From Leptasterias polaris (Eukaryota > Echinodermata > Asteroidea > Forcipulatida > Asteriidae), in NCBI GenBank assembly GCA_037783415.1, contig JAZGTN010000094.1, forward strand, positions 496,001 through 560,000: a DNA stretch of 64,000 bases, written 5' to 3'. Within the stretch, counting starts at the first letter, position 1. Each line of letters begins with the position of its first letter. The notes beneath the pieces were generated by a model that did no database searches, was not told where the DNA came from, and saw only the letters and a program-made list of their open reading frames with translations. Both the position numbers and the translations under genes were made by a program. Shown here piece by piece: positions 27,721-43,600 of this stretch.

Positions 27721-29025
27721 AAAGAATTTGTACCCTTCGTTATGAATATAAATACATTTTTTATTCCAGAATCTTAAAGACTGATACCCTGGGCATATCA
27801 AATTTTTGAACTGGCTAATTTCGGTCACTAATTAGTGGTTAATTACCCAAATCAATATAGACACCATTTGCCATAGGTAACACGCACAAATGCCTATACG
27901 GTTGAGTCAACTACCTCTGGTAAAGAATTTGTACCCTTCGTTATGAATATAAATACATTTTTTATTCCAGAATCTTAAAGACTGATACCCTGGGCATATC
28001 AAATTTTTGAGCTGGCTAATTTCGGTCACTAATTAGTGGTTAATTACCCACATCAATACAGACACCATTTGCCATAGGTAACACGCACAAATGCCTATAC
28101 GGTTGAGTCAACTACCTCTGGTAAAGAATTTGTACCCTTCGTTATGAATATAAAAACATTTTTTATTCCAGAATCTTAAAGACTGATACCCTGGGCATAT
28201 CAAATTTTTGAGCTGGCTAATTTCGGTCACTAATTAGTGGTTAATTACCCACATCAATACAGACACCATTTGCTATCAATAGCACGCACAAATGCCTACG
28301 GTTGAGTCAACTACCTCTGGTAAAGAATTTGTACCCTTCGTTATGAATATAAATACATTTTTTATTCCAGAATCTTAAAGACTGATACCCTGGGCCTATC
28401 AAATTTTTGAGCTGGCTAATTTCGGTCACTAATTAGTGGTTAATTACCCACATCAATACAGACACCATTTGCCATAGGTAACACGCACAAATGCCTAAAC
28501 GGTTGAGTCAACTACCTCTGGTAAAGAATTTGTACCCTTCGTTATGAATATAAATACATTTTTTATTCCAGAATCTTAAAGACTGATACCCTGGGCATAT
28601 CAAATATTTGAGCTGGCTAATTTCGGTCACTAATTAGTGGTTAATTACCAAAATCAATACAGACACCATTTGCCATAGGTAACACGCACAAATGCCTAAA
28701 CGGTTGAGTCAACTACCTCTGGTAAAGAATTTGTACCCTTCGTTATGAATATAAATACATTTTTTATTCCAGAATCTTAAAGACTGATACCCTGGGCATA
28801 TCAAATTTTTGAGCTGGCTAATTTCGGTCACTAATTAGTGGTTAATTACCCACATCAATACAGACACCATTTGCCATAGGTAACACGCACAAATGCCTAT
28901 ACGGTTGAGTCAACTACCTCTGGTAAAGAATTTGTACCCTTCGTTATGAATATAAAAACATTTTTTATTCCAGAATCTTAAAGACTGATACCCTGGGCAT
29001 ATCAAATTTTTTAGCTTGCTATTTT
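27721..29025 (+). repeat. Tandem 201 bp satellite, ~6.5 units
   Basis: Unit starts (AAAGAATTTGTACCC) fall at 27721, 27922, 28123, 28322, 28523, 28724 and 28925, giving a period of 199-201 bp. Each unit contains CTAATTAGTGGTTAATTACC and TACGGTTGAGTCAACTACC. The last unit decays after 29010. Confidence 0.92.
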
Positions 29026-29685
29026 GTCGCTAATTAGCCACAGTTATACAGGCGCAATTTTCTCCTATCGCACAAATGCGGCAATAAAATGAAAATTACA
29101 TCTTTCCGTGATCAAAAACTGTTTTTACCACTTTGTTTCTTCCCAAACAAAATTAGGAAAAGGTTATTGTTCAACTTTTCAGAACAACGCATACAAATGA
29201 CAAGTAATCAAGAATATTTAAACGTCATGAATTTTATTTAAATTCTGGAAAATAAGTATGAAAATCAATAGCACATGGTAGAAATGAATATGTAAAAATT
29301 ACAATTAGTCATTGTGTATTTATTTCCAATTTATCTTTGTATCAAGATAATGATAAATGCCAACTTATGTCATCACTTTCGAGTAACTTTTCTGGATGTT
29401 TGCTTTTCGTATCATCATTACTAACCGATTTAGTGCTTTGTACACAGAACAATAAATAAAAAAATGAATATCCATTTATAACCCTTTAATATCCAGTTTT
29501 AAAATAAAACTTTGTACAAAAGTAAAATATTCTTTTCTTAATCTTTGTTGTTAACAGACAAGTGAGTTTATCAAACAGAATACTTTCTCTGTGTGTATGA
29601 CATTTTTTGTCAAAACTTGACATCAAGTGACCTTTCTGAAAATCATAATAGAGGAATATTCTGCAACCCATTTATAAATGCGTGG

Positions 29686-33061: not shown

Positions 33062-33086
33062 CCCCCCCCCCCCCCCCCCCCCCCCC
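33062..33086 (+). repeat. 25-base poly-C tract
   Basis: Uninterrupted C run between ACCCCTTCCG and TGGGTAAAT. A second run of 18 C lies at 35094-35111. Long C runs are assembly risk points. Confidence 0.9.
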
Positions 33087-33494
33087 TGGGTAAATCTGTC
33101 CCCTGGAGATTCCGTCCCCCATAGTAAACTACAATGGGCTGAAGGAGGATGACTCAAAAGAGGGCGCTATCTGAAGAACTTTGTGCACAGTTCGCCACAA
33201 GGGAGGACAGAACCTCCGGGGGGTACTGAATCACCTGTCACACCTACAAACAGTAATTGTTTTTTAAATGGCAACCCTCAATTTGTTGGCAACACATTTT
33301 TTACGACCTTTATTTATTTGTCCACGTAATAGTGAAAGGTACAGATTGAAAGAGGCATATTGATTCGGCCAAGTAGGCAATTGTGAGTATTATGAAATAA
33401 TGCGTCTACATAGTTTTGGTTAATCAATTGCACCAAGATAGCCAGCTCTACAATTTGGTATGCCCAGTGAATCAGTCTTGAAGATAATGTGATA

Positions 33495-33935
33495 GAAAAT
33501 TAATTTTTACTCATAACGAAGGGTACAAATTCTTTACCAGAGGTAGTTGACTCAACCGTAGGCATTTGTGCGTGCTATTGATAGCAAATGGTGTCTGTAT
33601 TGATGTGGGTAATTAACCACTAATTAGGGACCGAAATTAGCCAGCTCAAAATTTTGATAGGCCCAGGGTATCAGTCTTTAAGATTTTGGAATAAAAAATG
33701 TATTTATATTCATAACGAAGGGTACAAATTCTTTACCAGAGGTAGTTAGACTCAACCGTATAGGCATTTGTGCGTGTTACCTATGGCAAATGGTGTCTGT
33801 ATTGATGTGGGTAATTAACCACTAATTAGTGACCGAAATTAGCCAGCTCAAAAATTTGATATGCCCAGGGTATCAATCTTTAAGATTCTGGAATAAAAAA
33901 TGTATTTATATTCATAACGAAGGGTACAAATTCTT
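33495..33935 (-). repeat. Inverted copy of the 201 bp satellite, ~2 units
   Basis: Starts CATAACGAAGGGTACAAATT on the plus strand, the complement of the satellite start. It has two full units and joins unique arm sequence at 33935. Confidence 0.85.
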
Positions 33936-34304
33936 TTCAAAACGTGTTTTCAAATTAAACAACGTCTATTATGACATTATGCATACACTCAATTTGTCTC
34001 CGTGTTTGCGGCTTATTTTCTAACATTTTATGTATTACATTTTTTAATTTTTATTGCTTTCCATTGACCTATAGTTATATGATTTCAATATTATCGAGAG
34101 AAAAACTCTAATTTTTGGCTTGTTTTTTAGTATTCGTTCGGATAAAATAACGATTTCACCATTAGAAATGAGCAAAATGAGCCATTTGTTCACCTCCCTG
34201 TACTGCATGTGTTCTATTTTCTTAATACGAGGCTGGTTTTTTCCGGGAATACGCGGCTGGCTATTTCGGGCCCAATACTGTGCTAGCTTCAGCTCGGTAT
34301 TGAA

Positions 34305-34540: not shown

Positions 34541-34604
34541 ATGTCAGTGCCGTTATTACATACAGTTACAGATGTTGACTTGAGGCCAGTTCTTAATAAA
34601 TTAG
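34541..34604 (+). CDS. RTTN: RTTN exon 1 (start codon exon)
   Basis: ATG at 34541, 21 codons plus one base, donor G|GTAAGC. It encodes [20 protein letters not shown] then L. The split glycine codon joins exon 2 to give [11 protein letters not shown], matching the conserved N-terminus of rotatin. The exon lies 3.3 kb upstream of exon 2; choice of this ATG rests on that junction and the phase. Confidence 0.82.
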
Positions 34605-37600
34605 GTAAGCATCGCTCATCCAACAGTCGTGTGTGTGTAACTGATCAAAATGTTACAAATACAATAATGTAGTGTAGTTGTAGGCGCTGTGTAAAGCCCT
34701 GTTCCGCCCTACTCCTAGAACTATGAGGTTCATTCCGCTATCGTCTAATGGAGACGATAGCGGAATGAACCTCATACCATAGTTCTAGGAGTAGTTCCGC
34801 CCCAACTTGACAATCGTACTAGTTGGGACCGGTCCCAACTTGAGTGTTCAAGTTGAGGCGTCCCAACTGTAGTTGGGAATGGGATAGTACAGGGTACCAG
34901 CGGAGTTCTGGTTGTGTGTGTGAAGTGTGTGGCAAGACTGAAATCAGCACTCTAAATAATTTAGTGCTGACTTTCATTTTCAATTAATTTAGAAATATAT
35001 ATCAGTGCCAGCACCATATTTGAAAAAACAAAAAAACTTAGACCGTTCGTCCCATCCATACGCTGATCGCCGCAGTGGGAGCTCCACACCTCACCCCCCC
35101 CCCCCCCCCCCGACCGCATGTCACAGTCCCCACGATCAATCACTGTATTGTTTCTGCGGAGGCTATCCTGTTGAGTTCTATGGGCGACCCCAACTACAGT
35201 TGGGATGCCCCAACTTGAACACTCAAGTTGGGACCAGTCCAAACTATAGTTGGGACTATTGTCAAGTTGGACGGAACAGCCCCACTTGTGACACTCACAC
35301 TGTGTGGTCAAGCAGCTTGGCCACACAAGTGGGGCTAGGCGCTGTGTGTACTCCTAGAACTATGAGGTTCGATCCGCTATTGTTGTATCGTGGAGACGAT
35401 AGCGAATCGAACCTCTATACTATTATACTATAGTCATACTCATACTATAGTCATACAGTTCTAGGAGAGTAGGAGTAGGCGCTGTGTAGCTCCATCCTAG
35501 AGGTTCAATCCGCTATCGTCTCCACGATAGTGGATCGAACCTTAGTTTAATAGTTCTAGGAGTATCCATGACCATGCTTCCGTCCGTTTTCATGTACCAA
35601 TTGACATGTGACTGAGCATGTGTGCTCATGCGCAAATTGCATAGCAACTCCAATCAACTTCCGCGTCAACTGTACGAACTGCATGTACGAGTGTAGTCTT
35701 TCTCTTAACTTAGTGCAAGACCTTGTTTTGATTTGTTGCTTTTTTTTCCCCCGATCATCCGAGCGGTTCGTGGATAATAGCGCCCTCTCACTGAAAAATA
35801 TTATGATAAATCACAACAAAAAGGCCTTGCAGTTGCACCAAGACTAGCACGAGTGTGACAAAGTTTCTATGTATATTGTGGGCGCTGCCATCTGCATGCA
35901 AGTTTTCACTTACCAAGGATAAAATTTTAAATTCTGGACATGGAATTCCGGAAACAAGGATTTTTAGGAATATGTGAAGAAATATTCACTCCCTTCAGCT
36001 TCCTTCATCAGGTATAAATATGAAAATACTTTGTTATAAAATTTGTTTGCAATGGTCTGGGACCTTTATAGTTGTTTATACCCTGGACTTTGTCGCTTTG
36101 TTTGTATCGGAGTAGTCCAACCTGGGCAATGCTAGACCTAGTAACTAGGGTGCTGTACTCCCTAAAAAAGTGTTGTTATCTTGGGTCCTACTAAAAGCCG
36201 ACAACACGCAGACAACGCCGACAACGCCGACAACAAGTCCAGAGTGCCGACAACACGCCGACAACAGGTTTCAAATACCTCAAAAACAGCAAATAAACCA
36301 AGGATTTATTAAAAATATGTGTACTATGTAATATTAACAAAAATGCAATGGCATAACTTCACGAGAAGTCTGAATTTTTAACCAGAAAAAAATTGAATTC
36401 ACACGGAGTGCGGTCGGACGCCATATTGGCCTAAAATTCCATTATGATACGGGTAAGATGGATTTAGCGCTTACAAAACAACAGAGGGCGGGCATCATGT
36501 GAAGAGTGTATAGTGAAGGTAATAATAATAAAAACCCTGGACGAAATAAAGGAACTATTTTGCAGTATAAATGTAAGATTTTACAATGTAATCATCACAA
36601 TGAACTCAATCGAAAGTCAGATAAGACGCGTCTTATCTGCAGGAAATTACGGTATCTGAAACTCGTTGTCGGCACTCTGGACTTGTTGTCGGCGTTGTCG
36701 GCGTGTTGTCGGTTTTTAGTAGGACCGGTTATCTTCGGTCGTCCCAATCCACTTGGTACAACATGTACAAAGTGGATTGGCACTATTTACAAGGTTAGGT
36801 GCTGTGGTTCTGTACTAGCACCTGCAGACCTTTAGCTTACGGTGACGTGATAATAGAAAGAATCGCTGACGTGATAATAGAAAGAATCGCTGACGTGATA
36901 ATAGAAAGAATCGCTGACGTGATAATAGAAAGAATCGCTGACGTGATAATAGAAAGAATCGCTGATGTGATAATAGAAAGAATCGCTGACGTGATAATAG
37001 AAAGAATTGTTGACGTGATAATAGAAAGAATCGTTGAAAATTCCGCTGGCAATGTAAGTATTGCCAATGTATTCAATTTCAGCCATTTCTGTCAGATTAG
37101 TGACCAAATATTTACCAATTTTAAATTACAAAGCACTTCCGGTTTCCACGGGAAGAAAAGGTCAAATAGGGTCACATTCTGTGTAAGACCCAAAGAGTAC
37201 CTCAAGAGCTTGCAAATCATACAAAGAACTTGTCTTTAGCTATCACGGATAGCTATCAAGATATAAATTTTTGAAACATTTAAATATTAATGTTTTTTTA
37301 AATTATAATTGCGTCATCTATGACGTCATCATCCCGAAAATGCTTCGATTTCATCTACTCACTAAGGTCTAAGAGTATATGTAATGTTTTAAGTCTGTAC
37401 AATGTTTACTTCTTCCGAAATCCTGATGAGAAGGTTCAGTGAAAAGGAAGAGCACAGGAGGGAAAGAAACCCCAGTAAATTAGCTATAGGTTTTCTGCTG
37501 TTGGTCGATTCGAACACCTTAAAAAAAGTACAACAAAATTACCAAAGTCAATTTTATTGAAGAATATTTAAAAAACCAAGTGAAGTTACCACAGTGGATT

Positions 37601-40600
37601 GAAGTTGCAATTTGATTGTAACCCTCCTCCCTGATGTGAGTAATGAAGGTCTTTCTCTACCGATCTGCAACTATCCTTGCCAGCCTCTTCTCTTATTTGA
37701 CTTATTTGACAATAACTTTTCATAGTGCCAACCATTTGTCAAATGAGCCAGATCGAAAAGAATCTTTTTCTGCATCAAGCATGTGGAGCAGTCACTAAAA
37801 TGATGCAGCCTCGTTTAATTTAAGCAGTAACATTTAATCAAAAAGAAAACAGGTTAAACAAATGTCTTTAATGTGAAAGTTAAACCAAATCAAATGCCTT
37901 TTTCCTCCTCTAAACAGGACACAAGTTAGAGGAGATACGTGTGAGGGCATTGCAGAATATCTTGAGTAAATTGGAGCATGGGTTAATCTGTGAATCGGAT
38001 CTTGTTCAGGAAAGGTTTTTACACATAAATCTTTTAGAATGGTTTAATCACAGTCACTGCACGCATAAAGAAGAAGTGCTCAATCTCATCAAGAGATTAA
38101 GTAAGGTATGTGAAATCCCTGCACAATTCTGCTGTTTTTGTGTATTTTAAGCTTGTGTTGTGGATTAAAGTTACTCCATTTGCTCTGTGTGACTGTATAT
38201 AACTGCTTCAGGTTGACTACTTGCTATGTACATGTAGATTATGTGGTCTAATGTACATTATGTCTTTATACAAGTAGACCTACATCCCTGCAACTCACAA
38301 AATAATAGTGCTCTCATGTCATGCATGCTGAAAAATGTTGAACTGCCAAATGTATCTTTCAATTGACATGTCAATGTTACAAATGTGAAAGGCAAGTTGC
38401 TCTAGTTTTCCTAACCTCACTACAGGAAGATGTCAGTTGACAAGGGGGGCACTTCCATGACTGGTATTCATCAAGACTAAATAAGGTGTGCATTATTATC
38501 AACAAAATAATTTGAATCTTATGAACAGCATGGGTCATCGGTCCAGCAGTTTCTTGAGATTGGAGGGCCTAGTTTCATATCCAAACTTCGAGCCGATACT
38601 GATGACTCTCTTCAGTCAATCATTGATGACATCTTAGACAATCTACTCATTTTACCAAATCAAGATGCAGTACCACATACAACAGAATGTATCTATCAAC
38701 ATCAGCAAGCAAACAACAATGGTATTGTATTGTTAACCCCCTCCCCCTCCTCCAGCCCCGACAGAACAAAACAAATAACCCCTCTGAAATAATAGAAAGA
38801 AATATATACCCACCCATTACTAAGTCCATCCAATTTTGACGGTCAGGTTTCCTTTGATTCAGAGGCACTGATTACGTGTCCAATACACATTCCTGTCAAA
38901 ATGTCCACCACAGCTTAATGGTGTGTTGGTTTGAAGTTTCAACTCTGCAGTAGCAAAATGAGTTCAATGTGTTGTTAAATTAGATAATTGATGGAATGAT
39001 GTGCAACATGAATTTTTGAACACATACATTGTTAAACAGGCATAATAGATTTGTTCAGCCTTCAGTATGAGTGACAGGTGTGTTTTTGCACTTAGAAAGT
39101 TGTTTGTCTGATTGATCATTTTAAGTTATTACAAGTGCAAAAGAAATGTAGTTGATATTGAAGCAAACATTAAAAATTAAAGATGTGACAAAATTAATTA
39201 TTTAAAACCTTTGACTCAAAAAGTGTCCTGTGATTTCTGTAGAGTCTGGATTCAAACAAGTCGTTCATGAGATGCAGAGGTCATCAGTTTCAACACAGAG
39301 CACACCATTATCGCCTCAACAATATGGCTATTTCAAAAGTGCCATCAAAAGCAATGTGCAGCACACAACTGGATACAGTAATTCAGTCAACACTGGTAGG
39401 TCAAAGACGACTGGATACAGTAATTCAGTTAAAACTGGTAGGTCAAAGACTACTAGATACAGTAATTCAGTTAAAACTGGTAGGTCAAAGACTACTAGAT
39501 ACAGTAATTCAGTTAAAACTAGTAGGTTAAAGACTACTAGATACAGTAATTCAGTTAAAACTAGTAGGTTAAAGACTAGTGGATACAGTAATTCAGTTAA
39601 TACTGGTAGGCCAAAGACTACTGTATACAGTAATTCAGTTAATACTGGTAGGTCATAGACTACTGGATACAGTAATTCAGTTAAAACTGGTAGGTCATAG
39701 ACTACTGGATATAGTAATTCAGTTAATACTGGTAGGTCAAAGACTACTGGAAACAGTAATTCAGTTAATACTGGTAGGTCATAGACTACTGGATACAGTA
39801 ATTCAGTTAATACTGGTAGGTCATAGACTACTGGATACAGTAATTCAGTTAATACTGGTAGATCATAGACTACTGGATACAGTAATTCAGTTAATACTGG
39901 TAGGTCATAGACTACTGGATACAGTAATTCAGTTAATACTGGTAGATCATAGACTACTGGATACAGTAATTCAGTTAAAACTAGTAGGTCATAGACTACT
40001 GGATATAGTAATTCAGTCAACACTGGTAGGTCATAGACTACTGGATACAGTAATTCAGTTAATACTGGTAGGTCATAGACTACTGGATACAGTAATTCAG
40101 TTAAAACTGGTAGGTCATAGACTACTGGATATAGTAATTCAGTCAACACTGATAGGTCATAGACTACTGGATACAGTAATTCAGTTAATACTGGTCGGTC
40201 ATAGACTACTGGATACAGTAATTCAGTTAAAACTGGTAGGTCATAGACTACTGGATATAGTAATTCAGTCAACACTGGTAGGTCATAGACTACTGGATAC
40301 AGTAATTCAGTTAATACTGGTAGGTCATAGACTACTGGATACAGTAATTCAGTTAAAACTGGTAGGTCATAGACTACTGGATACAGTCATTCAGTCAACA
40401 CTGGTAGGTCATAGACTACTGGATACAGTAATTCAGTTAAAACTGGTAGATCATAGACTACTGGATACAGTAATTCAGTTAAAACTGGTAGATCATAGAC
40501 TACTGGATACAGTAATTCAGTCAACACTGGTAGGTCATAGACTACTGGATACAGTAATTCAGTCAACACTGGTAGGTCAAAGACTACTGGATACAGTAAT

Positions 40601-43600
40601 TCAGTTAAAACTGGTAGGTCATAGACTACTGGATACAGTTATTCAGTTAAAACTGGTAGGTCATAGACTACTGGATACAGTCATTCAGTCAACACTGGTA
40701 GGTCATAGACTACTGGATACAGTAATTCAGTTAAAACTGGTAGATCATAGACTACTGGATACAGTAATTCAGTCAACACTGGTAGGTCATAGACTACTGG
40801 ATACAGTAATTCAGTCAACACTGGTAGGTCATAGACTACTGGATACAGTAATTCAGTTAAAACTGGTAGGTCATAGACTACTGGATACAGTTATTCAGTT
40901 AAAACTGGTAGGTCATAGACTACTGGATACAGTAATTCAGTTAATACTGGTAGATCATAGACTACTGGATACAGTTATTCAGTTAAAACTGGTAGGTCAT
41001 AGACTACTGGATACAGTAATTCAGTTAATACTGGTAGGTCATAGACTACTGGATATAGTAATTCAGTTAAAACTGGTAGGTTAAAGACTAGTGGTTACAG
41101 TAATTCAGTTAAAACTGGTAGATCATAGACTACTGGATACAGTAATTCAGTCAACACTGGTAGGTCATAGACTACTGGATACAGTAATTCAGTTAAAACT
41201 GGTAGGTCAAAGACTACTGGATACAGTAATTCAGTTAAAACTGGTAGGTCAAAGACTACTGGATACAGTAATTCAGTTAATACTGGTCGGTCATAGACTA
41301 CTGGATATAGTAATTCAGTTAAAACTGGTAGGTCATAGACTACTGGATACAGTAATTCAGTTAATACTGGTCGGTCATAGACTACTGGATATAGTAATTC
41401 AGTTAAAACTGGTAGATCATACACTACTGGATACAGTAATTCAGTTAATACTGGTCGGTCATAGACTACTGGATACAGTAATTCAGTTAATACTGGTCGG
41501 TCATAGACTACTGGATACAGTAATTCAGTTAAAACTGGTAGGTCAAAGACTACTGGATACAGTCATTCAGTTAAAACTGGTAGATCATACACTACTGGAT
41601 ACAGTAATTCAGTTAAAACTGGTAGGTCATAGACTACTGGATATAGTAATTCAGTTAAAACTGGTAGGTCATAGACTACTGGATACAGTAATTCAGTTAA
41701 TACTGGTAGGTCAAAGACTACTGGATACAGTAATTCAGTTAATACTGGTAGGTCATAGACTACTGGATACAGTAATTCAGTTAATACTGGTAGGTCATAG
41801 ACTACTGGATATAGTAATTCAGTTAATACTGGTAGGTCAAAGACTACTGGAAACAGTAATTCAGTCAACACTGGTAGGTCATAGACTACTGGATACAGTA
41901 ATTCAGTTAAAACTGGTAGGTTATAGACTACTGGATACAGTTATTCAGTTAATACTGGTAGGCCAAAGACTACTGGAAACAGTAATTCGGTCAACACTGG
42001 TAGGTCATATTATTTTCTTAAACTTTCAAAGTAATTTTGTTTTTGAGAATAACATATTCACAATGAAACCCGACTAAACTAAGTAAAGAAAACAAACATT
42101 CTCATAATTTTTGTTTTCTTTTTCTTTTCTCTTTTGAGAAAGTATGGATTGTCCTTGGCATGGTTGTATGTTAGCCAGTCAACTGACCGTAACCATAAAC
42201 AGGATGTTGTGAAGTTGTTCTTAGTGTTCATTAAAACGTCGATTGTTGATAAGTTTGGAAAAGTTTGGCTGAAAAAGACGTCAACCGATGTGAAGTGGTT
42301 AAGACTTGTTCACCTCAATATCCCTTTCTTTTCGTTAATGTTGTAGGTATTAAAGGTTTGAAGTTTTCTACTTTTCCTTGGCTTGCTTTAACCCCCACTG
42401 ACAGACATGTGTTGATATCAACCAACAGGTACGTCCAGATATTGCACATTTTATTAAACAAGTAATAAATCTTTCTGTAATTATGGTAACTTTTTGACGT
42501 TCTAATTTATCAGAAAAAGAATAAATTTGTTGACATCATTGTTGATTATTATTAACCTACCGATCAGCTTAGAAATAAGTGGGTCTACAGTCTCAGCTTT
42601 TGTAAGAATCTTTCTTTTTGCACTGAGCTGACCAACAATACTCAGACTGAATGGAGGGAAGGCATGCTGTTTTAACGTGTGGTCGAACCAGTGGTCACAT
42701 TACGAAAGACTAGCTGTGTTTCAAGTTTATACATTCAACTGTTAATACAGTGTGACAATTAACATTGACTACTCCCATGTATCCTAAGGGAATGTCATGA
42801 AACATATATAAGTGAACTGTTTCTTCATGGCAATAGAACAAGTTTGATGAAGACATACTATGGAAGCACTATTTGTTTAAGAATGATGATAGACTAATTC
42901 TGATTAACTGCTTCCTTTTTGGAACAACAAATGATTGAGAAGGGACTATCCCAAATAAACAAAGACTAATCTTAATCATAAGAGGCTACCTAAACACTCC
43001 AAATACTGGCCTTAACTTTAAACTGCAACCACTGATTGCATTGGCTATGATGCCCTGCTAAGTTGACTTTAATGCCCCTTCCAAAAATGCACAGGTCAAG
43101 CATGCCCTTTTTTTAGAACAAACTCTTTGATGTACAATTAAGTCGCATGACAATCGACCACCTAGTATTGTGTCTTAAGCCAACTGTAAATTTAGAGCTG
43201 AACAGTTATGACCATTCACCTATATAGAGTAAGTCACTTTCTTTCTAGAGTTGCGTTAAAACAAAAGCTCAATTGGACAGTTTTCAAGTGTCAAAATGCC
43301 AAAGACCTGGGGAAAAAATTGATGTTTCAAAGTGATCAGCAAAAATTGTGCAACATTTTATCTGACATAAGCTAACAATTCTCAATCTTAATGTTTTGGC
43401 TTTGTGCCCCTTTAGTTGGCATTGGTGCTTCCTGGAATTTTGATGAAGCTAAGGTCAAAAGTGGCCTGCCCTGTTTTCCCTTTAGATCAAGGCCTGTCAT
43501 ATAGAGTTATGATTAGATGTTTCAGGCCGATGGTATGTACATGTAATGACCAAATTAAGTTAGCTCAGTAATACACAAGAAGTTGAAGCAATGGTATGCT

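Follow-up and report, generated by a model that had tools for sequence, protein, structure and literature searches.

Minisatellites that overlap a splice donor have been described in two human genes, for which the excerpted portions of the respective reports are followed here. In ABCA7, a disease-risk locus, a variable number tandem repeat (VNTR) of 25 bp in intron 18 directly flanks exon 18 and includes its donor, and its copy number between people ranges from about 12 to 427 (PMC5954066). A transcript with exactly one unit retained occurs in cDNA beside the canonical one, and a longer VNTR is accompanied by more skipping of exon 19 and by lower expression, which according to the authors is not caused by the exon 18 plus unit-retention transcripts (PMC5954066). 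In the human gene IFI6 (6-16, G1P3), two downstream repeat units act as donors and give rise to three mRNA species (PMC4526556). An invertebrate case is presented here from the sea star Leptasterias polaris, in a window of 64,000 nucleotides (contig JAZGTN010000094.1 of assembly GCA_037783415.1, positions 496,001 to 560,000 of the forward strand; positions below are those of the window). At 39368..42009 on the plus strand, this window holds a 42-bp minisatellite of 63 units, hereafter array 1, built from copies of the exon 4/intron 4 boundary of the rotatin gene RTTN, which carries a second array of this kind, array 2, outside the window. A preliminary description of this DNA, made from the sequence alone, treated an array that arises at a splice junction as undescribed. 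This view is not supported, given ABCA7 intron 18 and IFI6 as reported in the excerpts. Because both had already been described, the donor ladder is a known kind of element to which the rotatin arrays add an invertebrate case; they differ from the human cases in the 28 exon bases and frame-preserving length of the array 1 unit and in the presence of two arrays in one gene.

The host gene was correctly named in the preliminary description. Exons 2 to 5, once joined, match the Pfam family RTTN_N (PF14726) with E=1e-25 over 97/97 profile positions, and similarity to rotatin extends over the full length. Among the best 120 of 582 matches, the closest, at 82% over the part used as query, is the rotatin-like protein P0001 from Asterias amurensis, and the next seven, from hemichordates, echinoderms, amphioxus and a limpet, reach 43-46%. 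When A. amurensis rotatin itself was queried, the next match was a brittle star at 55%, and Patiria miniata showed 75% over 46% of the query, both among the best 120 of 655 matches. By these similarities the DNA most likely belongs to a sea star close to Asterias. RTTN looks intact, since 2289 of the 2290 residues of A. amurensis rotatin are covered over 91 kb in the window plus 80 kb of the same contig. Stops in 4 of the 47 tblastn alignments are read as alignment running beyond an exon edge.

Mapping of A. amurensis rotatin by tblastn placed coding exons 1, 2 and 3 at 34541..34604, 37918..38105 and 38529..38721, all on the plus strand like the features that follow. Exon 4 occupies 39243..39395 (71% identity, aa 149-200), its AG|AG start and G|GT end being taken from the sequence, and exon 5 occupies 42347..42428, 100% identical to aa 200-226; the underlying tblastn spans are 39242-39397 for aa 149-200 and 42346-42426 for aa 200-226. 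Array 1 thus sits at coding exon 4, as first described. Intron 4 (39396..42346, 2951 bases) begins with the donor CTG|GTAGGT and ends with the acceptor TTTCTTTTCGTTAATGTTGTAG|GTATTA at 42346|42347; array 1 fills its first 2614 bases, leaving 337 bases before the acceptor.

Tandem Repeats Finder (TRF) reported array 1 at 39368-42009 with a period of 42, 62.9 copies, 93% matches and 0% indels. Cutting the array every 42 bases gave 63 units in exact register, so that the 63 copies, their register and the single phase of all donor copies stand as the preliminary description had them. Unit 63 is incomplete and follows 38 of the 42 columns up to the TRF end, after which unique intron begins. Each unit consists of 28 exon bases and 14 intron bases from the exon 4 boundary; in unit 1 the exonic portion is the 3' end of exon 4 itself (39368-39395, 28 bases). 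Of the 42 columns, 19 vary among units (11 of the 28 exonic and 8 of the 14 intronic; unit 63 was excluded from the last five columns), and units 2-62 share a mean pairwise identity of 93.2%. Identical units are frequent at lag 6, and the maximum over 30 lags was matched by 21 of 1000 shuffles. At any one lag, no more than three successive units are identical, a run attained in 69 of 500 shuffles. Block duplication has left a weak trace in array 1 at most. Open reading frames of 503, 352 and 330 aa within it were rejected as candidates, being by-products of the stop-free 14-codon unit in those frames. The intron adjoining the 3' end of the array (42007-42302) has 40 similar places elsewhere in the genome among those scored (73-96% over 50-159 bases), so that array 1 borders on dispersed repeats at that side.

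The 141-base 5' edge of array 1 matched nowhere else in the whole assembly (630 Mb, 334 contigs), in a DNA search that passes over very common words. Exons 2-4 as a query found one copy of the locus and no second haplotype in the assembly. The copy number rests on one assembly, and it could in principle have been produced by the assembly itself. Such an artefact is highly improbable: the 63 units contain no indel, the 19 variable columns leave no more than three identical units in a row at a fixed lag and no long copied blocks, the flanks on both sides belong to RTTN, and one locus was found in the genome.

The origin of array 1 is best read from its first donor. Donor 1 (39393..39401, plus strand; CTG|GTAGGT, 7/9 consensus) fits the junction of the A. 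amurensis protein, which reads VSTG|IKG there and VNTG|IKG here. Joining from donor 1 gives ...VNTGIKGLKFSTFPWL, with ...VSTGIKGLKFSTFPWL as the counterpart in A. amurensis, where HTTGYSNSVSTG|IKGLKF runs on without an extra repeat; over a longer stretch, A. amurensis rotatin has NVQHTTGYSNSVSTG|IKGLKFSTFPWL and the join of donor 1 to 42347 has NVQHTTGYSNSVNTG|IKGLKFSTFPWL. The comparison with a related species that had been proposed at the outset thus places the join at the position of donor 1. Since the exon tail and the unit-1 junction match A. amurensis rotatin, we regard donor 1 as ancestral, and orthology to this annotated protein marks it as the authentic donor; the seed peptide is likewise ancestral coding sequence, A. 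amurensis rotatin having the orthologous exon end. Judged by this alignment, array 1 is seeded at the exon 4/intron 4 junction, with unit 1 as the exon end. Units 1 (CAGTCAACACTG) and 63 (CGGTCAACACTG) share the C21/C24 state, which would be predicted if a single junction had been duplicated and these were its two ends; the argument is qualified by 11 inner units with the same state, which occurs in 13 of the 63 units. Among 167 proteins listed, GYSNS is found only in A. amurensis rotatin, without a repeat.

We lean slightly towards reading array 1 as a tolerated minisatellite of small cost, spliced mainly from donor 1 with minor use of downstream donors and no dedicated isoform switch. The array would have begun as a small tandem duplication at the exon 4 junction; unequal exchange or slippage may then have added to it in steps of whole 42-bp units and carried variants across its inner part. 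In most cases the spliceosome would settle on the donor nearest the 5' end, a site that is transcribed first and defines the shortest exon; this preference for donor 1 is suggested by orthology and by the intact gene. From donors 2 and 3, and less so from 6 and 7, minor proteins may arise in which this weakly conserved exon is longer by 14-84 residues. Splicing at later donors would leave transcripts with a stop after residue 286, which nonsense-mediated decay would likely remove. That later donors are used at all is proposed by analogy, because both human cases use downstream units. Exon 4 has the lowest tblastn identity to A. amurensis rotatin among exons 1-7 (71%; the others 81-100%), so it is plausible that this exon tolerates a change in length or extra residues.

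The donors themselves were described beforehand as a ladder of near-identical sites. The GT dinucleotide is intact in 62 of 63 units, and the 9-mer CTG|GTAGGT of unit 1 is found in 43 of 63 units. By unit cutting, unit 19 is the sole one to have lost the donor GT, which reads AT at 40152..40153 on the plus strand. For comparison, 71 of the 3656 plus-strand GTs elsewhere in the window reach at least 7/9 of the donor consensus. Pairing of donor 1 with the U1 5' end scores -8.8 kcal/mol, the fourth of 16 RTTN donors after those of exons 1, 9 and 11; exons 17 and 18 were dropped from this scoring, having no credible site near the alignment end. Donors 1, 2, 3 and 7 carry the identical 9-mer, and the donors of units 4 and 5 are weakened (-5.3 vs -8.8 kcal/mol). 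No selection on the donor bases was seen among units, where four of the six columns from +1 to +6 vary.

In four folding settings, donor 1 ranks first or second for openness among the 63 donors of array 1, partly owing to a unique G at unit column 42; removing the array in silico made it neither clearly more nor clearly less open. The exon 4 stretch with the first units folds better than shuffled sequence (z -2.54; 3 of 200 shuffles as good), and an inner five-unit stretch of the array does not (z -0.78). This openness would suit an array that is simply intron filler, with exon definition fixing donor 1 completely and the other donors ignored. At both arrays the A. amurensis protein has its join where donor 1 lies, and minisatellites are common in this genome, present in 7 of 12 sampled 10-kb stretches. 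Complete silence of the other donors is nevertheless unlikely, if the least so of the functional alternatives, for both human cases use downstream units in the excerpted accounts and the argument from openness fails in array 2. There, donor 1 ranks 10th, 38th, 25th and 42nd of 42, and structural openness was rejected as a general rule of donor choice.

Several of these observations weigh against the preferred reading, in which donor 1 dominates and the cost is small. Its use in this animal is read from orthology to an annotated protein. The donor 1 9-mer is present in 42 other units, so that donor sequence or strength alone cannot single it out, and the failure of openness in array 2 leaves the choice rule unexplained. 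In experiments with duplicated donors a downstream donor can win, and choice among identical donors has mostly been studied with few engineered copies. The excerpted ABCA7 report adds that the alternative forms together exceeded the canonical one in 90% of the cases of one brain region, and that use of the extra unit was unchanged with array length, which speaks against a cost growing through donor competition (PMC5954066).

The reading frame bears on whether downstream donors could be of use. Translation of seven joins showed that donors 1-7, in units 1-7 (39368..39661, plus strand), leave the RTTN frame open when joined to exon 5 and add 0 to 6 extra 14-residue repeats. The first in-frame stop, a TAG at 39656..39658 on the plus strand, is met by transcripts from donor 8 or later: the joins from donors 8 and 9, the sole later ones tested, hold it after residue 286, and donors beyond 9 lie past the same TAG. 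The early observation that units 1-6 are open and unit 7 introduces a stop is accurate, with the amendment that they are not the sole open ones, 18 of 63 units lacking an in-frame stop of their own. The six open units at the 5' edge may have been preserved there from an earlier state of the array, or selection may have favoured harmless donors. Among units 1-62, 6 of 20 variant changes are synonymous, vs 31 of 126 possible single changes, and 14 of 20 alter an amino acid or a stop, vs 95 of 126 possible; coding constraint or selection on the repeat peptide was thus not seen in these unit variants.

The preliminary description proposed that donor choice could generate rotatin isoforms with 0-6 extra repeats. 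In this reading, donors 1-7 might be used on purpose, providing rotatin with a selected, variable number of 14-residue repeats. The unit length is a multiple of three, units 1-6 are all free of stops although just 18 of 63 units are, and the 9-mer shared by donors 1, 2, 3 and 7 would permit such use. Yet amino acids are not spared among the variants, two of the donors concerned (units 4 and 5) are weakened, the open units at the edge may simply retain an older state, A. amurensis rotatin has no repeat, and array 2 is out of frame with its 70 bases. A purposeful generator of isoforms is, on this evidence, quite improbable, and a tolerated array with incidental use of some downstream donors is preferred.

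Array 2 lies outside the window at contig C94 585389-588332 (L023:5389-8332) and consists of 42 copies of 70 bp at 98%. It starts within the final 16 bases of the exon encoding A. amurensis rotatin residues 1626-1690, ACCAAAGCTTGATCAG|GTGAG, which is exon 35 if each tblastn piece is counted as one exon, and CAG|GTGAGA is present in 42 of 42 units. The A. amurensis sequence SLIRLIDV fits the first donor joined to the next exon (ATTGATTGATGTTGAG). Past that donor the exon frame hits TGA at once (SLIR*), and the unit of 70 bases is out of frame. Array 2 is probably younger than array 1, because its units are more alike. Since it reads into TGA past donor 1 and the gene looks intact, RTTN apparently tolerates a ladder in which the donors beyond the first yield nothing productive.

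Stops of this sort could also be put to use. Donors past unit 7 of array 1 would then act as a brake, diverting a controlled fraction of RTTN transcripts into nonsense-mediated decay. From unit 8 on, 39 of 56 units carry the donor 1 9-mer, all past the TAG at 39656; the second ladder in RTTN hits a stop directly past its first donor, and expression of ABCA7 drops with VNTR length in the excerpted report (PMC5954066). Against such a brake, there is no sign of donor bases being kept better than others, with four of six columns from +1 to +6 varying, and the ABCA7 authors do not attribute the lower expression to the exon 18 plus unit-retention transcripts (PMC5954066). Regulation through a poison ladder is accordingly judged improbable, and minor, unregulated leakage into later donors remains part of the preferred reading. 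RTTN offers two natural ladders in one gene, one with 62 GT-bearing copies of which seven are productive, the other with 42 identical copies and a stop past the first. Junction counts per donor in ordinary RNA reads would directly measure position preference.

The two arrays raise the question of where minisatellites arise. In the sampled 10-kb stretches, minisatellites were counted with at least five copies and a unit of at least 12 bases. In RTTN, 20 TRF rows, minus ten overlapping another and three with fewer than five copies, leave seven arrays, and two of these seven start in the last 30 bases of an exon. The five other arrays of at least five copies (24, 40, 31, 31 and 32 bp) are intronic, 120 to 2542 bases from the nearest exon. 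Random placement of the seven arrays, with exon ends approximated by tblastn, put at least two at donors in 89 of 20000 trials; once array 1 is taken as given, 8.9% of random placements put one or more of the other six at a donor. Overlap of RTTN arrays with exons was not in excess (2 of 7 vs about 3 at random). Donor motifs were not enriched among 19 array units, both RTTN arrays included: at least 7/9 was reached in 5 of 19 vs 3.5 expected, and at least 8/9 in 1 vs 0.5 expected. In two other motif-bearing arrays, inspection by eye recognised no coding exon at the edges. Minisatellites of this genome may arise preferentially at splice donors, a suggestive lead of low probability that draws on the two arrays of RTTN (63 x 42 bp; 42 x 70 bp), both derived from an exon end and intron start. 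If true, the ladders would amount to a naturally occurring test of donor choice and would show that a vital gene can function with the 5'-most among dozens of identical donors.

Two of the intronic RTTN arrays, at L022:9104-9460 and L022:9813 to L023:635, have 31-bp units of like sequence and stand in the intron after exon 30; the first lies 120 bases past that exon, and the 31-bp unit has no donor motif. A further array, at 36843-37037 in RTTN intron 1, has 8.1 copies of 24 bp at 97%, with several frames open (DVIIERIA repeats).

Array 1 shows the features of a donor-overlapping minisatellite, namely an authentic donor in the first unit and usable-looking donors downstream. Like the ABCA7 VNTR as excerpted, it begins at an exon donor and repeats that donor in each unit. 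In ABCA7, the GT forms the first two bases of a 25-bp unit that is not a multiple of three, so that one retained unit shifts the frame, whereas the 42-bp unit of array 1 copies 28 exon bases and stays in frame for seven donors. With IFI6, array 1 shares, in the excerpted account, a minisatellite that provides multiple splice donors. The host gene there is interferon-induced, and array 1 instead comprises 63 copies of 42 bp with a second array in the same gene. The IFI6 unit is short, at 12 bp, and Turri 1995 is reportedly the work to be credited for the minisatellite donors of that gene. A new intron arising from a duplicated proto-splice site would likewise involve a small tandem duplication with an AG/GT motif; such a duplication supplies both ends of a new intron, while array 1 multiplies an existing donor. 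As a proto-splice origin of an intron, array 1 was rejected, since by eye its AG|GT (GGTAG|GTCA) has no preceding pyrimidine run. Scored as a donor, the same site has 4-5/9 matches in the six commonest unit forms. Titles and abstracts of the rotatin and sea star literature among the matches listed mention no such array, which is weak evidence, and the excerpts of PMC4039745 and PMC12783039 on intronic minisatellites describe no donor-born array.

Some repeats and duplications were noted away from the exon 4 junction. On contig C306, dynein motor exons form an inverted, equally scoring pair at 363753-368107 and 385989-390343, 18 kb apart, which is either a recent inverted duplication or an assembly effect. 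Within the window, upstream of RTTN exon 1, a run of 25 C occupies 33062-33086. A 201-bp satellite of 6.6 copies lies at 27721-29037, and 4.4 kb away, at 33439-33936, a 2.5-copy array has a unit that by eye is the reverse complement of this satellite.

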